From positions 1 through 64,000 of the forward strand of contig NZ_JAQSLN010000003.1 of NCBI RefSeq assembly GCF_028649655.1: 64,000 bases of DNA, given 5' to 3'. This DNA is from Halobacteriovorax sp. GB3. GTDB lineage: Bacteria > Bdellovibrionota > Bacteriovoracia > Bacteriovoracales > Bacteriovoracaceae. This document shows, piece after piece, positions 19,352-30,289 of the stretch. Both the position numbers and the translations under genes were made by a program. A model generated the notes under the pieces. That model did not search any database. It was given only the letters and a program-made list of their open reading frames with translations, and was not told the origin of the DNA. Positions within the stretch are counted from its first letter, which is position 1. Every line of letters starts with the position of its first letter.

Positions 19352-19960
19352 TTAAGGTAGTTTTAATTCACTCTCTATTACACCTGGTGCTAGCTCTAAA
19401 ACTTCAAAGCAATTTCCATTCGGTTTAAAAATTCCATGATCAGTAACAACTAAATCCACAACACACTTTCCAGTTAAAGGAAGATCACATTTTTTTACAA
19501 GCTTGGGACTACCGTCTTTACTGAAATGAGTCATCATAATAATAACTGTCTTAGAGCCATTCACTAGATCCATAGCACCACCCATGCCCGTGAGTTTTTT
19601 TCCTGGAATCATCCAATTGGCAAGTGAGGCCTCAGTGTCAACTTCCATCCCTCCGAGGACCGAGTAATCAATGTGTCCGCCGCGAATCATTCCAAAGCTC
19701 AAAGAACTGTCAAAGAATGAAGCACCCTCTTTGATTGTAATTGTTTCTTTACCAGCATTAATAAGGGTTGGACTAACATTATCTTTTTTTGGTCTACCTT
19801 TGACCCCTAAAACTCCATTTTCAGAATGTATCCACAGAGTCTTACCTTCGGGAAGTCTTTGAGCGACGATTGTTGGAAGTCCAATACCTAAGTTGACACT
19901 CGATTGATCACTGATTTTTTCAAGCACCTTATCTGCCATTTCTTCTTTGGTCCAGGCCAT
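19352..19960 (-). CDS. scoB: 3-oxoacid CoA-transferase subunit B
   Basis: A 202-residue beta subunit of succinyl-CoA:3-ketoacid (or acetoacetate) CoA-transferase. The catalytic glutamate lies in HSENGVLG (E47). Other family segments are VNLGIGLPT near the start, RGGHIDYSVLGGMEVD and IPGKKLTGMGGAMDLV. The enzyme moves CoA between carboxylates, usually in ketone-body, acetoacetate or amino-acid breakdown. Its ATG overlaps the scoA stop by one base. It is the last of six coupled genes; an intrinsic hairpin follows the stop. Confidence 0.93.
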   Translation of the reverse strand: MAWTKEEMADKVLEKISDQSSVNLGIGLPTIVAQRLPEGKTLWIHSENGVLGVKGRPKKDNVSPTLINAGKETITIKEGASFFDSSLSFGMIRGGHIDYSVLGGMEVDTEASLANWMIPGKKLTGMGGAMDLVNGSKTVIIMMTHFSKDGSPKLVKKCDLPLTGKCVVDLVVTDHGIFKPNGNCFEVLELAPGVIESELKLP

Positions 19961-20652
19961 TAATTATCCTCTAAAGTTAAAAATTCAATATCGTTTTTAT
20001 AATTTGATCCTTGGTAAATTCTTTGAACAAAAATACCTGGGAGATGGACATCTTCTGGTGCTATTTCTCCAAGTTCTACAAGTTGTTCAACTTCAACGAT
20101 TGTCGTTTTTGCGGCCATCGCCATGAGAGGGGAGAAGTTTCTAGCAGTTTCTTTGAACCACAGGTTCCCATAAGGATCGGCCTTTTGGGCCTTAATGATA
20201 GCAAAATCTGCATGAAGGGCCGTTTCAAGAACACAGGGGCGATCAAATTCTTTGACTTCTTTTCCCTCTGCGACAATTGTTCCGTGACCTGTGGGAGTAT
20301 AAAAGGCCCTAATTCCCATTCCTGCTGCACGTATTCTTTCACTAAATGTTCCCTGAGGAACTAATTCTACATCGATTTCTTTGTTAAAGATTCGTTTTTC
20401 AAGATCAGGATTTCCCCCTACATATGAACAGTAGGCCTTTGAGATTTTATCTTGAACTAAGAGCTTTACGAGTCCTCTTCCTGAGTTTCCAATGTTGTTG
20501 GATATGACAGTGAGGTTATTAATGTCTTTTTTACAGAGAGCATCGATACTGTTTTCTGGAATACCGCAAAGACCGAAGCCTCCACTCATAACGCTTGAGC
20601 CACTTGTAATATCTTTAACTGCTTCGTCGCTTGACTGATATATTTTTGTCAT
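19960..20652 (-). CDS. scoA: 3-oxoacid CoA-transferase subunit A
   Basis: The 230-residue alpha subunit has SVMSGGFGLCGIPENSI (about 20-36), ISNNIGNSGRGLVKLL, SYVGGNPDLEK and FYTPTGHGT, all typical of SCOT-A. The start at 20652 (MTKIYQSS) is preferred over one six codons earlier because AAGGAAAAA lies upstream at a suitable distance. It overlaps the preceding aminotransferase by 38 bases, so its translation is probably coupled. With ScoB it forms the CoA-transferase heteromer. Confidence 0.92.
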   Translation of the reverse strand: MTKIYQSSDEAVKDITSGSSVMSGGFGLCGIPENSIDALCKKDINNLTVISNNIGNSGRGLVKLLVQDKISKAYCSYVGGNPDLEKRIFNKEIDVELVPQGTFSERIRAAGMGIRAFYTPTGHGTIVAEGKEVKEFDRPCVLETALHADFAIIKAQKADPYGNLWFKETARNFSPLMAMAAKTTIVEVEQLVELGEIAPEDVHLPGIFVQRIYQGSNYKNDIEFLTLEDN

Positions 20653-21862
20653 TCTGTTTTTCCTTATCAAGGGAATATTTTTTTAAAATTACTTGATCTA
20701 TTTTTGAGATATATTTTTCAACTTGCTTAAGACTTGTAATGTAACTTGGGCAGAGGATGATATTCTCACGCACTTGTGAAACAAAAAGCCCACTCTCTTT
20801 AAAGTCGTCAAAGAGATCTTCACGGCCATTGGTTTCTATGGCAGCTAAAAGACCTATCTGGCGAACTTCCTTAACGAAGGGGTTCTTTTTTAGCGTGTCG
20901 AGATGTTTTTTAAAGCTTTTTTGAAGTTGCTTTAGGTGAGTTTGTAGCTTTTCCCTTTCAAGGATTTGTAAAACCTTTTTTGTAGATGCGAGACCAAGGG
21001 GATGGGCATAATTTGTTAAACCATAACTAAAAACTTCTTTTTCTAGATCTTCTGAGGCCGATTTAGAAACCCAAACGGCTCCAAAAGGACAATGACCCGC
21101 ATTGATCCCTTTTGCCATGCAAATATAATCAGGTCTTAATTTATAATGATGAAACCCAAATGGTTTTCCCGTACGATGAAAACCGCACACAACCTCATCT
21201 AGGATGAGCTGTATTTTATATTGATCGCAAATTTTTTGAATTCCTTCAAACCAGCTCTTTGGAGGTATGATAACACCATTTCCACCTGTAATTGTTTCTA
21301 GACAAAATGCTGCAATTTTGTGAGGTCCAATTGATTTTATAATTTTCTTAGTTTTAATTAACTTTGGATCATCGTGTGGTTCAGGAATTCTGGCAGTCCA
21401 CTCATCAATTGTGTCGTGCTTTTTATTGCGCCAGTCTCCCGTAATAGAGAGTGCTCCTAGAGTGGCTCCATGATAAGACTGCTCTCTTGCGAGAATAATT
21501 TTTTTTCCACTTCTTTGTCTTGCCATTTTCAAAGCATTTTCAACAGACTCAGCTCCTGAGACTGTATAAAATAATTTACCGTCTCTTTTTTTAAGGGCCT
21601 TTAAAAGCATATAAGAGACTTCTTCTTTTAGCTTAAAAATACTCTTTGGGTTGGAAACTGAAATGAGCTTGGCCTGATTCATCATGGCCTTAACAACTTC
21701 TGGGTGTGAATTACCAAAAATGGCATGATAGCTTGTTGATGAGAAATCAAAGAGGCGCTTTCCTTCATTCGTGATAAGGAAATTACCTACGGCCTTTTCA
21801 ATTGAAACCGTGTGGGCCTTTTCTTGATCTTGCCAAGTAATAAAATAAGGACGATCTCCCAT
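20615..21862 (-). CDS. Class-III PLP-dependent aminotransferase
   Basis: The 415-residue fold-type-I enzyme has TVSGAESVENALKMAR (about 100-115), SYHGATLGALS (129-139), the cofactor aspartate in LILDEVVCGFHRTG (D222) and the PLP lysine in MAKGINAG (K251). It resembles omega-amino-acid:pyruvate/beta-alanine-type transaminases, which turn an amino group at a terminal carbon into an aldehyde or act on beta-amino acids. The substrate is not decided. It is the fourth gene of the coupled operon and overlaps scoA, so its product may feed the CoA-transferase. Confidence 0.88.
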   Translation of the reverse strand: MGDRPYFITWQDQEKAHTVSIEKAVGNFLITNEGKRLFDFSSTSYHAIFGNSHPEVVKAMMNQAKLISVSNPKSIFKLKEEVSYMLLKALKKRDGKLFYTVSGAESVENALKMARQRSGKKIILAREQSYHGATLGALSITGDWRNKKHDTIDEWTARIPEPHDDPKLIKTKKIIKSIGPHKIAAFCLETITGGNGVIIPPKSWFEGIQKICDQYKIQLILDEVVCGFHRTGKPFGFHHYKLRPDYICMAKGINAGHCPFGAVWVSKSASEDLEKEVFSYGLTNYAHPLGLASTKKVLQILEREKLQTHLKQLQKSFKKHLDTLKKNPFVKEVRQIGLLAAIETNGREDLFDDFKESGLFVSQVRENIILCPSYITSLKQVEKYISKIDQVILKKYSLDKEKQNDKNISVKRRSS

Positions 21863-21897
21863 AGTGCCTCCTTGCCCCTGGGAACAAAACAGTTCAA

Positions 21898-22965
21898 TTA
21901 AAATTGAAGCATTAAATCCTTATAATTGGAATCAAATTCTTTACAACCACGCCAAAAGTAAGCACTTTTACTACGGTGATCATAGGCTGCACCACCGCAC
22001 GTCATAGATGGGTCTTGTGCTCCACTCTCAAAATGCGAGCAGATTGCCTTAGGATATCCCTCATGGTCTCTAAAGAGTTCGATTAAATCATTAAAATTCT
22101 TTGTTTGGTTTATTTTCTTAGAGAGTAGGTCATAGCGATCATAGGTTGTTGAACTCTTTGCTGTTTCTTGCTCAAACTCTTTTACAAATTTACCAAGGCA
22201 GTGATTTGTGTGAAATGTTTTACCGTGATTGAATTCATCTGTGTGAAAGAGAAGCTCTTTTGCACTCGGAGAGATTTCCCAGTGTTCACTTTGCTTGCTA
22301 TCGCTAATAAGATAATTATGTCCGCTTGTAACAGGAGCTCCCGTTAGCTTGTTTTTCATTTGCTCAAAAGCCTTTTGTTCAAGCGTGTGGCGAACAAGTA
22401 ATGGCCAAATAAGGCCGGCCTTTGCATTCTTTGTATTAATATTATTAACACCAATGAAAAGACCTGATTCATTGATTCCCATCATGCCGAGACAACCAAC
22501 AAGAGAGAAGAGATAGGACTTTGGTCCATGCTTACTCTCTGGTACTTCAATGACCGATATATAGTCTTTTGCACTCGAGTGCATATCCCAAGTTTGACCA
22601 CTAACTACATGATCACTTGATTGGATATGAACAGTCGAACAACCTTCGTCTGGCATTTCTATATCTCTAAAGTCTGTATAGTTATTCAAAATAACGACAT
22701 CAGTTAAAGAGATACTGGCACCACTTGCTATGGCCTCGAGCTCTTCGGCCAGATGAGGAGCAAATGATTTTGATATTTCAAATTGATCGTGAGCAAGTTT
22801 ATCGAGAGAGTAAAGAAGTGAAGGGTTCTTTTTAAGCATAAGTTCACGTCTAATCGACGAGAGTTCCCTAATTCCCTCTCTAAAAGATTCACCGTGAGAG
22901 AGGCCCCATTCACGGTGAGATTTTCCTGCTTCATATTGAATAAAAGGTAAGGCCTGATCAGTCAT
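21898..22965 (-). CDS. C45-family autoproteolytic acyltransferase/hydrolase
   Basis: This 355-residue N-terminal-nucleophile protein is related to isopenicillin-N acyltransferase. The self-cleavage and nucleophile site is visible in DEGCSTVHI (Cys about 108), with GQTWDMH, GCLGMMGINESGLFIGVNN, GHNYLISD and FHTNHCL following in family order. Members transfer or remove acyl groups on amines and small peptides. There is no signal peptide, so it is cytoplasmic. Its ATG overlaps the stop of the fusion gene (TAATG). The neighbouring GNAT domain and ATP-grasp ligase point to acylated or peptide-like small molecules as substrate, by inference. Confidence 0.82.
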   Translation of the reverse strand: MTDQALPFIQYEAGKSHREWGLSHGESFREGIRELSSIRRELMLKKNPSLLYSLDKLAHDQFEISKSFAPHLAEELEAIASGASISLTDVVILNNYTDFRDIEMPDEGCSTVHIQSSDHVVSGQTWDMHSSAKDYISVIEVPESKHGPKSYLFSLVGCLGMMGINESGLFIGVNNINTKNAKAGLIWPLLVRHTLEQKAFEQMKNKLTGAPVTSGHNYLISDSKQSEHWEISPSAKELLFHTDEFNHGKTFHTNHCLGKFVKEFEQETAKSSTTYDRYDLLSKKINQTKNFNDLIELFRDHEGYPKAICSHFESGAQDPSMTCGGAAYDHRSKSAYFWRGCKEFDSNYKDLMLQF

Positions 22966-25900
22966 TAGATATCACCTCTGTTGTATTTAGAGAGAAATCT
23001 CTTCATTTGACCGTAACTTGCAAGGACTAAGAATTGACCACTTCTATCTTGTTTAAAATATTTTGAATAAACGTAACTGAGCGGTCCATTGATGAGTCCA
23101 ACTCCGTTTTCTATATGAAATTCATTAATTGAATGATCGCCAGCAATAGTTTTGATGGCCTGATCAAATTCTGCAAGTGTGTTGTCATAATCTCTTTTGT
23201 TATTTTCAATGAGTTGTTTTTCAAAAAGATAATTGTTAAAACTAAATTCATCACCATCCCATGTACTAATGACCATGAGTGGGGCATCGATAAAATAATC
23301 TTTTTTCATTGCACAAATAGCTGCTTGGCCTGAGAGATAGCACATGAGCGCATCTGGTTGGAGTTTCAGTTGATTTGCACAGAGAAATTGTTCTTTGCTA
23401 TAACGATACATCGAACTCGCTGTCTCATTGAAGATAACTGGAGTTTTATACTTATTACAAAGAGTGATGATTTTCTCTAGTGTTTCACGAGAAATTTTCT
23501 TTCCATTTCTCTGTTGAATTGGCTCAAGCCAAAGGCCCATGAATCGTTCTTTTTTAAGGATAGACTCCAACTCTTTTAGAGACGCCGTTTCACTGGTCGT
23601 TGGGCAAGTCAGTTTTGTTGTATCGAAAAACTCATCACTTTCGCTTAAACTTCTCGATAGGAAACTTCCTTTTCCAAAGTAGTGGCCTTTGAACGTCAGT
23701 AGCTTGTTTGATTTTTCATTTTCTTTTTGATTGAACCAAAGAGAACGAGAAAGTTTATCAACGCATTCACTTTGACCACTGGCCGTATAGACGTGTTGAA
23801 GTTCTTTTGGAAATGATTCTGTAAGATCTTTAACGTCTTGAATAAAGCGAGAGCTAATAAAGTTTGAAAGACATACTTTGTTAACTAGGTAAGGAAGTTG
23901 GTTTTTACAAAAGTCTGTGCTTAGTTGAGAAAGTGTTAGGCGTGATTGAACACCGTTAGAAAGCTCTATAGGCTGTTCTTTCCAACTCGCTGTTCCTTTA
24001 TAATAGAAAACATCTCTATATTCTTCATCATCAGGATAATCTTCATTGATGTAATCAATAACTTTTGCACCAAGAGATAAATTAATACTTAGCATTCCCT
24101 TTGCTAAGTGATCGCGGTTTCTTCCATTGATTGATTCAATACCGTTGAAAATGCTGTTTAAAACAAGAAATGATTTTAAGTCTCTCCCAATTCCTAGTCC
24201 TTGGGAATTCGGAGCTGTCGTTGTATCGAGCATATAGAGAGTATTTTCATTTGCAAATGATGGATCTCTTCTAACTCCTCTTTCATAAGGGTATAAAGAA
24301 AGTGGTCCAGCAAAAGTAATGGCCTGAAGTTTGTCATTTTTCATTAAAGCGTAGCATTGAGAGTTTTCATGATTTGCTGTTGCTTCAAATTTTTCAATTT
24401 CTGTTTGCCTTGCAGGTTCATAAACTGTTTTTTCAAGATCAATTATTTTTTCCTTAAACTCAAGGAAGTTCGCTCTATTTATCTTAACGAGCACTGATTC
24501 TGTTTTTTGTTCAATCCACTCTTTTGCTGTCCTTAGCGTATTCTCTTTATTGTTTGGAGCTAGTCTTGCTTCTAGAAATAGCTCTTGCCAAAAATAGAGA
24601 TCATTTGCTCTGCTTGTAAAAGTTGGAATTTCTACAGGTGCCAGCTCTTTTTGATGAAAAACGGATTCAGCAATATTTTCCAAACAGGCAAAAAGAAAGT
24701 CTAAGTCTTCTTTTCTAAAAGAAGTATTTAAGCGAAACCTTAATGTGTTTGATCCTGCTGGGTAGAATAGTTGAGCATGATCAAAGCGCTTTTGTATAAA
24801 TTGTCCTACGTGTTCTTGGTTTTTTAGATCAATGGCAAAGGCGAGTCCATGAACTCTTGGGTTTTCTACAAAGTCAGAGTATTTATTTTTAAAATTTAAC
24901 AGAAGGGCATCTGTAAGATTCTCTAATTCTAATATTCTTTGATCGTTTTGAGAGATCATAAGCGCGTGAGCATGACCTCTTGCTATACTTGATACAGCAA
25001 TTTCCTCATTATTTCTTTTATCAATAGGAGAGAGGACTATTCCCGATTGAGCTTTTTTTGCCAAGACGACGTAATCAGGAAAGAGCTCCTGACCCTTTGA
25101 ATCTTGGAGTTCAAATTCAGTGTGCCAGAAAAACTTGCGACCTAAATGGAAACCTGTTTGAACTTCGTCAAAGATTAATGAGACTTGAAATGATTTCGCA
25201 ATGAGGGCAAGCGCTTGAAAAAAGCGATTTGTAGCATAGCGATCTCCCCCTTCACATTGCATTGGCTCGATTAAGATCGCGAAAATATTTCTTTCTTTAA
25301 GTGCATCACGAATTTTTAAAAGAGACTGAATTTCGCTTTCTAAAAGGGGGTCACTATTCGTATTTTCAGGTGTTTTAAAGTTTTTCGATGCAGACATTTC
25401 CCATGATTTTAGCCACGATTGATCAGCTTTAATAAGTGTTTGACCACTTTTATCTTCAGGAAATGGCATGTAGACAGATTCATAACCTGGCCACTCAAAT
25501 GGAGCACGTTTTGTTTTATTCCAAGTACTCATTAGTGAAACCATCATTCGGCCATGAAAAGATCCTTCAAAGCAAAGAACTTTTTTGGCAGATTCATTTT
25601 TCCGGTTTTTGTAAGCAAGTCCTAGTGCTGTTTCATTCGCTTCAGCTCCGGAATTACAAAAACTTGTATGGATCGTTTGCCAGTTAAGTTCTCTTTTAAA
25701 TAGGCCATGAAGTGATTGTACTAGTTCTTCAAATCCTTTTGATGAACATTGGTTTGTCCATGTTTGTTCAAAGTGAGCTGGGCCAAAGAAGCTTTGAGGA
25801 TTAAAACCAAGCCCAAGTGTCGCAATTTGAGACGCAGAATCCATGAAGTAGTGTGGAGTACCTTCGTTTGATTCAACACCAAAGTAAGGACCTTTAGAAT

Positions 25901-26012
25901 TTCTCAAGTCTGCAATATAAGTTTTCTTCTCTTTTGCTACTTTATCATTTTCATAAAGCTTTGATAGTTTCTCATTGGCGTGGTTTACGTCACTTTGATT
26001 AATTGATTTCAT
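22965..26012 (-). CDS. Aminotransferase - GNAT - pseudo-aminotransferase fusion
   Basis: The 1015-residue protein has three parts. Residues 1-455 form a class-III aminotransferase: FCNSGAEANETAL (118-130), GSFHGRMMVSLMS, FDEVQTGFHLGRKF (D282) and LAKKAQSG with the PLP lysine (319/320), most like lysine 6-aminotransferase. Residues about 515-680 resemble a GNAT acetyltransferase, with SQGLGIGRDL (603-612) as the acetyl-CoA loop. Residues about 700-1010 repeat the aminotransferase plan (TASGQSECVDK 743-753, GHYFGKGSFLSRS, LEPIQQR). There the cofactor Asp is Asn (N862) and the lysine position reads LSGQAA, so this half should be inactive. The gene abuts ddl with no gap and overlaps the C45 gene. 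Confidence 0.8.
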   Translation of the reverse strand: MKSINQSDVNHANEKLSKLYENDKVAKEKKTYIADLRNSKGPYFGVESNEGTPHYFMDSASQIATLGLGFNPQSFFGPAHFEQTWTNQCSSKGFEELVQSLHGLFKRELNWQTIHTSFCNSGAEANETALGLAYKNRKNESAKKVLCFEGSFHGRMMVSLMSTWNKTKRAPFEWPGYESVYMPFPEDKSGQTLIKADQSWLKSWEMSASKNFKTPENTNSDPLLESEIQSLLKIRDALKERNIFAILIEPMQCEGGDRYATNRFFQALALIAKSFQVSLIFDEVQTGFHLGRKFFWHTEFELQDSKGQELFPDYVVLAKKAQSGIVLSPIDKRNNEEIAVSSIARGHAHALMISQNDQRILELENLTDALLLNFKNKYSDFVENPRVHGLAFAIDLKNQEHVGQFIQKRFDHAQLFYPAGSNTLRFRLNTSFRKEDLDFLFACLENIAESVFHQKELAPVEIPTFTSRANDLYFWQELFLEARLAPNNKENTLRTAKEWIEQKTESVLVKINRANFLEFKEKIIDLEKTVYEPARQTEIEKFEATANHENSQCYALMKNDKLQAITFAGPLSLYPYERGVRRDPSFANENTLYMLDTTTAPNSQGLGIGRDLKSFLVLNSIFNGIESINGRNRDHLAKGMLSINLSLGAKVIDYINEDYPDDEEYRDVFYYKGTASWKEQPIELSNGVQSRLTLSQLSTDFCKNQLPYLVNKVCLSNFISSRFIQDVKDLTESFPKELQHVYTASGQSECVDKLSRSLWFNQKENEKSNKLLTFKGHYFGKGSFLSRSLSESDEFFDTTKLTCPTTSETASLKELESILKKERFMGLWLEPIQQRNGKKISRETLEKIITLCNKYKTPVIFNETASSMYRYSKEQFLCANQLKLQPDALMCYLSGQAAICAMKKDYFIDAPLMVISTWDGDEFSFNNYLFEKQLIENNKRDYDNTLAEFDQAIKTIAGDHSINEFHIENGVGLINGPLSYVYSKYFKQDRSGQFLVLASYGQMKRFLSKYNRGDI

Positions 26013-27011
26013 TTAAGACCTCGCATTACTTTGAATTCTTTCACTCAAATATGTTTTAAAGGGAATGCCCATATTTTCCATCATTTTTGGAAACATTGAT
26101 ATAGGGGTCATTCCTGGAAAAGTATTTATTTCGTTAAGAAAAATTTCACCATCTTCTGTTAAGAAAAAATCAATACGCGACAGATCGCTAAGTTTAAGAC
26201 CTGTGAAGGCCTTTCTTGCAAACTCTCGCATTTTCTCTACTTGGTTAATTGTTAAATTCTTCGCCTCTACATCAGTAGTCGTATGAGATTTCTCATCATA
26301 TTTTTCTTCAAAAGAATAGAAACTAGTAGGGCATATGATTTCTCCTGGATGGGAGATGTAGAGTTTTCCATTGTGTTCAAAGGCCGCAATTTCAAGTTCT
26401 CTTGCTTTTAGTGTTTTTTCAACTAAGACGTATTGTGATAGTTCGAAGGCCTTTTTTAGGTATTGTTGTAATTGATCCTTCTTTGTCACAGGATAACAAC
26501 CAACACTAGAACCCTGTGATGCCGCTTTGATAAAAGCACCTTGATGGAGATCAAAAAAATCATGGGCCTTCTGTACTGTAGCTGTCGTTAGTTCATCCAA
26601 AAAGAGAAAGGGTGTGTTTTTAATATTTAAAGCGTCAAACCAGAGTTTCGAGCTCACTTTGTTAAAGCAAAGAATATTTGCTTCTGGTGAGCAACCAAGG
26701 TAGGGAAGTCCCATTAGTTCGAAAACTGCTTGGATTTCGCCCGTTTCTCCTGGAGGTCCGTGGATGCAAGGAATCGCGTAGTGGAGTTCTACTTTTTTAC
26801 TACCTTGTTTCCAGGCAATCTCTCCGGCCCTTCTTAATTCGACTTCTTTTCCTTCTCGGTCTATTCGTCTTCCATCGTGCAAGATTGTTACGTGATAGAC
26901 ATTGTATTGATCATTATCTTTTAAAGAATCATAAATATATTGGGAAGAAATAAGCGAGATGTCGTGCTCTGAGTGACCGCCGCCACAAAGAATGAGGATG
27001 TTTTTTTTCAT
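26013..27011 (-). CDS. ddl: D-alanine-D-alanine ligase family protein
   Basis: This 332-residue ATP-grasp enzyme has HGPPGETGEIQAVFELMGLPYLG (about 84-106, key HG..GE and Q), KAASQGSSVG for ATP binding, and the metal/product motif EINTFPGMTPISMFPK near the end. Ddl joins two D-alanines for peptidoglycan; relatives join other amino or hydroxy acids. The omega-loop and GET (usually GED/GEN) differ a little from the norm. It heads the coupled operon with aminotransferases, a C45 protein and a CoA-transferase. It may be the housekeeping Ddl or a dedicated dipeptide ligase. A second ddl near murB/murC elsewhere would favour the latter. Confidence 0.85.
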   Translation of the reverse strand: MKKNILILCGGGHSEHDISLISSQYIYDSLKDNDQYNVYHVTILHDGRRIDREGKEVELRRAGEIAWKQGSKKVELHYAIPCIHGPPGETGEIQAVFELMGLPYLGCSPEANILCFNKVSSKLWFDALNIKNTPFLFLDELTTATVQKAHDFFDLHQGAFIKAASQGSSVGCYPVTKKDQLQQYLKKAFELSQYVLVEKTLKARELEIAAFEHNGKLYISHPGEIICPTSFYSFEEKYDEKSHTTTDVEAKNLTINQVEKMREFARKAFTGLKLSDLSRIDFFLTEDGEIFLNEINTFPGMTPISMFPKMMENMGIPFKTYLSERIQSNARS

Positions 27012-27030: not shown

Positions 27031-27066
27031 AAAAAGAAAGGGGAGAGAAGACTCCCCCCTTTTTTA
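27031..27066 (-). terminator. Intrinsic terminator after thrS
   Basis: Read on the minus strand, a GGGGAG/CTCCCC-type stem about 6-7 bp long with a purine-rich loop is followed by TTTCTTTTTT. It separates thrS from the six-gene operon, which therefore needs its own promoter or read-through. Confidence 0.75.
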
Positions 27067-29023: not shown

Positions 29024-30289
29024 ATGCAAGAAACCACAACAACTTTAAGCTACGACAACGCCAGTCTAGCTTTTCTCGATCAGAATGAAAATGAACTGAT
29101 TCCTACAGCTTCTAACTTGAACGAACTAGAAGTGGGGAAGGCCTATTATCAAATAGCAAAGGTTTATTATGATAAGGCCGATTTAAACAATGCTGAAGAA
29201 AACTTTTTAAAGGCATTAAGTTTAGCGGTAGAGCCTAGAGATACTTATTCAATGTTTAAAATTTACGGATTTCTCATTCGTATTGCTTCTGAAAAACTAG
29301 ATACGCATAACGCGAAAAAATATATCGCAAATGCAGAGATCCTCGTCGACAAGCTCGCCGAGGTTCTAGGTAGTTTAAATGCTGAATATTTCTACAACGT
29401 CGGTATTGTTAAGAATTACTCTGGAGACTTTTCTACGGCCAAAGAGAATTATGAGCTTGCTTGTAAGAAGGCCAAAGAAGAAAATGAACCGGATCTTCTT
29501 GCAAAGTGCTTATTGGCCTTGGCCCAAAACGCTTTCAACCGTCGCTCATTTTCAGAAGCACTCATTTATCTTAATCAATTAAAAGATCTTCTAGAAATTG
29601 TTAATAAGTCATACTTACGTGGAGCTATGTACAATTCATATGCAAAAGTTAGTGTTGAGCTAGGTGATCACAAAGAGGCCCTTGAAAACTTTAAGAAGGC
29701 CAACGAAGTTCTAAGTAGCAAAAATTGCTGGAACCTCCAAGGGTATGTACTTTTAGGAAAAGGGATGGCCTTTAAATTGGCCGGTGACTTCTCTCGTGCT
29801 CTAATGTTCTATGAGCTAGCTGGCGAGTGTAGTAACCCAGCTGTTTTTAGAAGATTAGATCAACTCATTAGATCAGAAGTTGAAGATGTAAATGATGCAA
29901 GTGTTGATATTTATCTCGATAAGACAAATCGTATTGTTAAAGAGAGAACTCTTGGAGTTATCGACTTTAAACACCGTTTTGTACTCTTAGAAATTCTTTT
30001 TCTCCTAGCAAAGAACTCTGGTTCTTACTATGACAAAGAGCAATTAGCTAAATCTATTTGGAAAGATGAATACAATCCACTTATCCACGATAAGTTGATC
30101 TATACGAGTGTTTCACGTCTTAGAAAACTTATTGAACCTAAAGCTGGTAATGGCGAGAAAAGAAAGTATATAATAAGAGGAAAAGATGGTTATACTTTCA
30201 ACCCTCTCGTAAAAATTAGATTCCACATGGAAGCTAAGAGCTACCCTGATGCGGCCATTGCAAACGTCGACCTAGCATCACCAGTTTAA
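29024..30289 (+). CDS. TPR protein with C-terminal winged-helix DNA-binding domain
   Basis: A 421-residue cytoplasmic protein. Residues about 35-285 are tandem tetratricopeptide repeats (for example YYQIAKVYYDKADLNNAEENF and GDHKEALENFKKANEVL). Residues about 310-400 form an OmpR/PhoB-type winged helix: YDKEQLAKSIWKDEY, IHDKLIYTSVSRLRKLIEP and YIIRGKDGYTF. The domain order is the reverse of SARP/AfsR-type regulators. It is probably a transcription regulator with a protein-interaction sensor part. AAGGAAAGAG precedes the ATG. It may regulate the downstream secreted protein and RimI-like gene. Confidence 0.85.
   Translation: MQETTTTLSYDNASLAFLDQNENELIPTASNLNELEVGKAYYQIAKVYYDKADLNNAEENFLKALSLAVEPRDTYSMFKIYGFLIRIASEKLDTHNAKKYIANAEILVDKLAEVLGSLNAEYFYNVGIVKNYSGDFSTAKENYELACKKAKEENEPDLLAKCLLALAQNAFNRRSFSEALIYLNQLKDLLEIVNKSYLRGAMYNSYAKVSVELGDHKEALENFKKANEVLSSKNCWNLQGYVLLGKGMAFKLAGDFSRALMFYELAGECSNPAVFRRLDQLIRSEVEDVNDASVDIYLDKTNRIVKERTLGVIDFKHRFVLLEILFLLAKNSGSYYDKEQLAKSIWKDEYNPLIHDKLIYTSVSRLRKLIEPKAGNGEKRKYIIRGKDGYTFNPLVKIRFHMEAKSYPDAAIANVDLASPV

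Follow-up and report, generated by a model that had tools for sequence, protein, structure and literature searches.

A conserved Bacteriovoracaceae gene cassette with an aminotransferase/acetyltransferase/pseudo-aminotransferase fusion and its probable role in beta-lysine catabolism

What might six closely packed genes do together when one of them encodes an aminotransferase, an acetyltransferase and a degenerate aminotransferase in a single chain? The question is raised by the window analysed here, i.e., the whole stretch of 64,000 nt from Halobacteriovorax sp. GB3 (GCF_028649655.1, contig NZ_JAQSLN010000003.1, positions 1-64,000, forward strand), in which six open reading frames (ORFs), all on the minus strand, encode a D-alanine--D-alanine ligase (ddl), the fusion, a C45-family protein, a class III aminotransferase and the CoA-transferase subunits scoA and scoB. 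The initial annotation had taken them for one functional set that builds or breaks an acylated amino acid or dipeptide. Judging from the sequences, we are fairly confident that the five genes following ddl make up a beta-lysine catabolic cassette, which would work with an unlinked KamA encoded elsewhere in the genome. Beta-lysine catabolism as the predicted role of the cassette is the part of this proposal that we hold most firmly; the detailed assignment of the enzyme steps is an even call. The features are as follows.

26013-27011, minus strand: ddl, D-alanine--D-alanine ligase, 332 amino acids (NF002527 equivalog, 373 bits, above the cut-off of 310)
22965-26012, minus strand: fusion, 1015 amino acids, three domains
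24651-26012, minus strand: fusion N-terminal class III aminotransferase, residues 1-454 (PF00202; 2cin/2jje, Z 37; alignment to lysine epsilon-aminotransferase, LAT)
23943-24629, minus strand: fusion GNAT acetyltransferase domain, residues 462-690, with the acetyl-CoA loop QGxGxG (AlphaFold2; RimI 5isv)
22968-23942, minus strand: fusion C-terminal pseudo-aminotransferase, residues 691-1015 (L893, N862; STWDGD kept, with T917)
21898-22965, minus strand: C45 autoproteolytic amidohydrolase/acyltransferase, 355 amino acids (NF040521, 175 bits, above 85)
20615-21862, minus strand: stand-alone class III aminotransferase, 415 amino acids (PF00202, 248 bits)
19960-20652, minus strand: scoA, 3-oxoacid CoA-transferase subunit A, ATG at 20652 (TIGR02429, 258 bits, above 128.5)
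19352-19960, minus strand: scoB, 3-oxoacid CoA-transferase subunit B (TIGR02428, 263 bits, above 243.6)

The ORF coordinates bear out the initial annotation on the six minus-strand genes and on their junctions: ddl and the fusion meet with 0 bases between them, the fusion and C45 share a one-base TAATG overlap, C45 and the aminotransferase are separated by a 35-base gap, the aminotransferase and scoA overlap by 38 bases, and scoA and scoB by one base. The family labels given to ddl, C45, the class III aminotransferase, scoA and scoB are likewise confirmed by profile scores above the cut-offs, with Aminotran_3 found both in the N-terminus of the fusion and in the fourth gene.

Is this arrangement an accident of one strain? 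A search for the same gene order in other genomes had been set as the test, and we read 20 Bacteriovoracaceae loci from 20 genomes, 18 of them not cut by a contig end. The fusion, C45, aminotransferase, scoA and scoB genes follow one another on one strand, in this order, in 18/18 untruncated loci, and hence the order is not due to chance in this strain. Full-length or partial, the fusion is widespread across the family; a single-protein genome scan for it returned no matches, and an alignment-based scan of public genomes returned 70 loci. Outside the family it occurs in Planctomycetes, among them the isolate Botrimarina hoheduenensis, and in one metagenome-assembled genome (MAG) of Polyangiaceae. 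Furthermore, three genomes (G318, G365 and G367) contain a divergent fusion, 1,090 residues long, with a C45 gene after it, and differ in the remaining neighbours; since the pair is kept in these divergent loci, the fusion and C45 are the closest partners. Such divergent fusions of about 1,090 residues beside a C45 gene, at L177:8390-12708, L179:4993-9326 and L180:6483-10811, lie in other orders of the phylum, and no closely related KamA accompanies them.

The clue to a substrate comes from the planctomycetes. The operon of Botrimarina (L118) and that of L110 read fusion-C45-aminotransferase-scoA-KamA-scoB-thiolase, KamA being lysine 2,3-aminomutase, and in L101 and L121 the cassette can be followed as far as KamA, close to the end of the contig; KamA within the cassette, followed by scoB and the thiolase, points to the catabolism of beta-lysine or its acetylated form. 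The planctomycete KamA is 64-67% identical to the KamA of GB3 itself, which stands alone at C3:245084-246421, unlinked to the cassette. The latter exceeds the cut-off of the broader family TIGR00238 (245.5 against 199.2) and, compared with lysine 2,3-aminomutase (LAM) of Clostridium subterminale (2a5h), keeps the equivalents of R134, D293, D330 and K337 (R160, D336, D373 and K380), which we take to be the contacts to lysine and pyridoxal phosphate (PLP). Two neighbours on the opposite strand were noted: a nickel-pincer-cofactor-dependent isomerase (group 22) immediately upstream of the planctomycete cassette (L118:7461-8672), and AstD, succinylglutamate-semialdehyde dehydrogenase, just beyond the Botrimarina thiolase (L118:18749-20239).

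Within the order, the same genes tend to be found together. Among 73 good genomes (completeness >= 90%, contamination <= 5%), the fusion and C45 were both detected in one and the same set of 36, and KamA (at least 66% identity) in this set plus G059 and G060, giving a Fisher p of about 8e-19 for KamA against the fusion, a value that ignores kinship and overstates independence. KamA without a detected fusion was also seen in G011 and G109, which are drafts 84% and 87% complete. In the fusion-less G058, G059 and G060, KamA lies beside a run sized as kdd, an unknown ORF and a MutS-like ORF (loci L168, L166 and L167, respectively); profiles confirmed kdd and kamD in G059 and kamD and kamE in G058, and G060 is assigned by gene sizes only. 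These three are relatives with large genomes. The lysine fermentation route kamA-kamDE-kdd-kce has been described (PMC3149608); it resembles the route proposed here in its first step and in the orthologous KamA, and differs in relying on a 5,6-aminomutase and Kdd where the proposed one uses acetylation. The kdd/kamDE genes beside KamA in fusion-less relatives thus suggest that an orthologous KamA feeds either the 5,6-aminomutase route or the fusion cassette, so that a single bacterial family would have two alternative ways downstream of one aminomutase.

Several observations weigh against a beta-lysine cassette of this kind. The KamA of GB3 scores 278 bits with the AblA profile TIGR03820, short of the cut-off of 525.4, and no linkage to the cassette was found in 20 Bacteriovoracaceae KamA neighbourhoods. 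In G318, G365 and G367, KamA is 34-36% identical or missing, and the co-occurrence described above is clustered on the tree. Moreover, the AblB profile is not matched by the GNAT domain of the fusion, and the true AblB lies elsewhere in the genome, which bears on the substrate of that domain; it stands alone at C3:1179694-1180491 (L207:9677-10528), with 316.6 bits against a cut-off of 205.1. Linkage between KamA and AblB was also looked for in the 20 KamA neighbourhoods and was not found.

AblB and KamA together could make the osmolyte N-epsilon-acetyl-beta-lysine, and the presence of a true AblB in the genome would suit a cassette that turns over this compatible solute rather than serving lysine nutrition. 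The planctomycete cassettes, however, contain KamA and no linked AblB (by tblastn of the examined loci, AblB occurs only in the GB3 genome), and we consider such a role unlikely.

Does ddl belong to the set as well? It abuts the fusion without a gap and lies directly upstream of it in 17 of the 18 untruncated loci, which would favour the biosynthetic reading of the initial annotation, in which an acylated amino acid or dipeptide made by the other enzymes would be ligated by Ddl. Against this stands the linkage to thrS, which precedes ddl in 16/18 of these loci and adjoins it in 5/5 fusion-less genomes of the family (L172-L176); in addition, ddl is present in 69 of the 73 good genomes, with or without the cassette, it was not found in the planctomycete cassettes, and the GB3 gene scores above the Ddl equivalog cut-off. 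The thrS-ddl pair without the cassette, the distribution and the planctomycete absence rule out ddl as a member of the pathway and leave the biosynthetic reading hardly credible. Therefore, ddl is a passenger, and the cassette sits behind a pre-existing thrS-ddl pair. What survives of the single functional set is the five genes after ddl; likewise, the earlier alternative of building or breaking is probably settled in favour of breakdown by KamA, scoB and the thiolase in the planctomycetes, and the building of a dipeptide falls with ddl outside the cassette. A second, divergent Ddl-like ATP-grasp protein was seen in the GB3 genome at L013:8218-10199 (C1:428605 region); it overlaps the end of another gene, in which a zincin-like HEVGH motif occurs.

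How, then, might a chain with two aminotransferase-like halves around an acetyltransferase work? The whole fusion was modelled by AlphaFold2 with a mean pLDDT of 91.9 and a pTM of 0.92. Its N-terminal domain has a Pfam class III aminotransferase match at residues 56-446, and in the fold search made with the whole-fusion model, which covered residues 6-454, LAT (Rv3290c, 2cin/2jje) was nearest at Z 37, with 4-aminobutyrate (GABA) aminotransferase also near. The likeness extends to the active site: K319, D282, E254, R155 and R425 correspond to K300, D271, E243, R170 and R422 of LAT, and are kept in 42/42 of the fusions compared, which come from Bdellovibrionota, Planctomycetota and one Myxococcota MAG. 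LAT is a homodimer in which the partner subunit donates N328/T330, and the Thr of this N328-S-T330-W loop extends to the phosphate of the PLP bound by the other subunit. Precisely at this loop the N-terminal half of the fusion has a gap, with an invariant R345-G346 in its place.

The C-terminal part gave weak profile matches to BioA and other class III enzymes, in agreement with its earlier description as a pseudo-aminotransferase, i.e., a degenerate copy. In 42/42 fusions Lys never occurs at 893 (L893 here) and Asp never at 862 (N862 here), and the half keeps ISTWDGD at 915-921 in the 42 fusions, with one STWEGD and one VSTWDGD. Profile-profile alignment makes it a class III relative, with the placement of STWDGD against the stand-alone aminotransferase ambiguous, and assigning this motif to the partner-donated Thr motif rests on the sequence match to LAT. 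Thus, unlike in the LAT homodimer, the active half lacks the donated motif, which the pseudo half retains. The complementary loss points to a heterodimer within a single chain, with one active site, and we lean towards the view that the two halves jointly form it: the N-terminal half would supply the Lys, the PLP-binding Asp and the substrate residues, and the pseudo half would supply the PLP-phosphate Thr that normally comes from the partner subunit. In serine palmitoyltransferase, LCB1 and LCB2, one catalytic and one degenerate PLP subunit, share one active site; that enzyme, however, belongs to another PLP-enzyme family and has no GNAT domain, whereas the fusion is one chain of class III. 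Degeneration of this complementary kind, in a PLP enzyme that is joined to an acetyltransferase, is unusual.

The GNAT domain between the two halves, folded by itself, reached a pLDDT of 89.4 and resembled RimI (5isv, Z 16.6, root-mean-square deviation 2.5, 154 aligned). The earlier call of a GNAT domain is therefore upheld by the predicted fold and not by Pfam, in which the match stays below threshold (E 0.16). AblB was tried and rejected as an identity for this domain, which gave no match to the AblB profile TIGR03827 and whose alignment to AblB scored the same as one to an unrelated GNAT.

Next to the fusion, the C45 protein scores above the curated cut-off for C45 (acyl-CoA:6-APA acyltransferase-like) and carries the Gly108-Cys109 autoproteolysis site, in which C109 is the nucleophile; the Gly-Cys pair is invariant in 46/46 sequences, including the planctomycete and the divergent ones. 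Its nearest solved structure is the acyltransferase 2x1d, and we propose it as a candidate deacetylase for 4-acetamidobutyrate or for the corresponding CoA ester. The stand-alone aminotransferase, which keeps K251 and T283 and is nearest to taurine:2-oxoglutarate aminotransferase among solved structures, is proposed as a candidate N6-acetyl-beta-lysine transaminase.

From gene content, order, linkage, co-occurrence, residue patterns and folds we infer the substrates, the pairing of domains and the following steps. KamA would turn L-lysine into L-beta-lysine, and either the fusion's GNAT domain or the separate AblB would acetylate the 6-amino group. The stand-alone aminotransferase would then take off the 3-amino group to give 6-acetamido-3-oxohexanoate, ScoAB would make the CoA ester, and a thiolase would yield acetyl-CoA and 4-acetamidobutyryl-CoA. 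Subsequently, the C45 enzyme would take off the acetyl group, and the fusion aminotransferase would convert 4-aminobutyrate to succinic semialdehyde. In the GB3 genome, profile searches found five thiolases above the cut-off, and aldehyde dehydrogenases related to succinic semialdehyde dehydrogenase (SSADH) below the SSADH cut-off.

The distribution of the two transaminations follows the nearest relatives and could be reversed. A fusion would naturally carry out successive steps within one chain, and the class III catalytic residues are present in both aminotransferases; the GNAT domain could thus acetylate beta-lysine and the fusion's own aminotransferase take the 3-amino group, leaving 4-aminobutyrate to the stand-alone enzyme. 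On the other hand, the fusion half is nearest to the omega-amine enzymes LAT and GABA aminotransferase, and the stand-alone enzyme to one acting on taurine, a substrate like a beta-amino acid, both being family resemblance only, and we regard the exchanged order as a minority option, a tentative one. Alternatively, as LAT is the nearest solved relative and the equivalents of R170, E243 and R422 are kept, the fusion aminotransferase might act directly on lysine or beta-lysine at the epsilon-amino group, with GNAT and C45 acting on another amine. The LAT model TIGR03251, however, gives 125 bits against a cut-off of 520.8, and the linkage to KamA, CoA-transferase and thiolase fits an acetyl-protected route better, which renders the direct attack improbable.

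The acetylated beta-lysine route preferred here has known counterparts. The Bacillus kamA-yodPQRST genes encode KamA, a GNAT acetyltransferase, a deacylase, a CoA-transferase pair and a class III aminotransferase, one gene per step, and in these functions the two systems are alike. Unlike in Bacillus, the acetyltransferase-type domain of the cassette lies inside the aminotransferase/GNAT/pseudo-aminotransferase fusion, the C45 enzyme takes the place of YodQ, there is an extra aminotransferase, and KamA is unlinked in Bacteriovoracaceae. Set against the kam/yod type, KamA is in the genome and the class III aminotransferase and CoA-transferase pair are present; an AblB-type acetyltransferase and a YodQ-type deacetylase were not found in the locus. 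The kam locus is treated in PMC4428206 and its kamA and yodT in PMC6522883, and PMC2821294 describes the clustering of LAM genes with ablB in the degradation of lysine.

The proposed route is also like that of Pseudomonas in its acetylation, 3-transamination, CoA ester, thiolysis, deacetylation and 4-aminobutyrate transamination by a different transaminase. The Pseudomonas pathway, worked out by the Barker laboratory in 1979-1981, reportedly involves two transaminases and a deacetylase acting on 4-acetamidobutyryl-CoA (EC 2.6.1.65 and EC 3.5.1.51), and we know of no genes assigned to its steps. There the biochemistry is known, whereas the cassette offers gene candidates: with about even chances, the trifunctional chain (a composite class III site with GNAT between its halves) and the C45 amidase are the genes for beta-lysine steps known only as activities, namely the N6-acetyl-beta-lysine transaminase and the 4-acetamidobutyryl-CoA deacetylase. 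The pathway type is known; we have not seen this gene solution described. It offers an old pathway of beta-lysine degradation a concrete set of genes that can be tested, and suggests that predatory Bacteriovoracaceae could break down prey lysine by means of the cassette.

Upstream of the genes, one further feature was noted.

27037-27062, minus strand: terminator-like hairpin between thrS and ddl (11 pairs, 6 of them GC, followed by a T-run; a consensus match only)

A promoter scan gave 22 sites against 22.2 expected, i.e., no excess. Additionally, a TPR and winged-helix regulator is encoded at 29024-30289 of the window on the plus strand, divergent from thrS, and its position is kept in 20/20 Bacteriovoracaceae loci.

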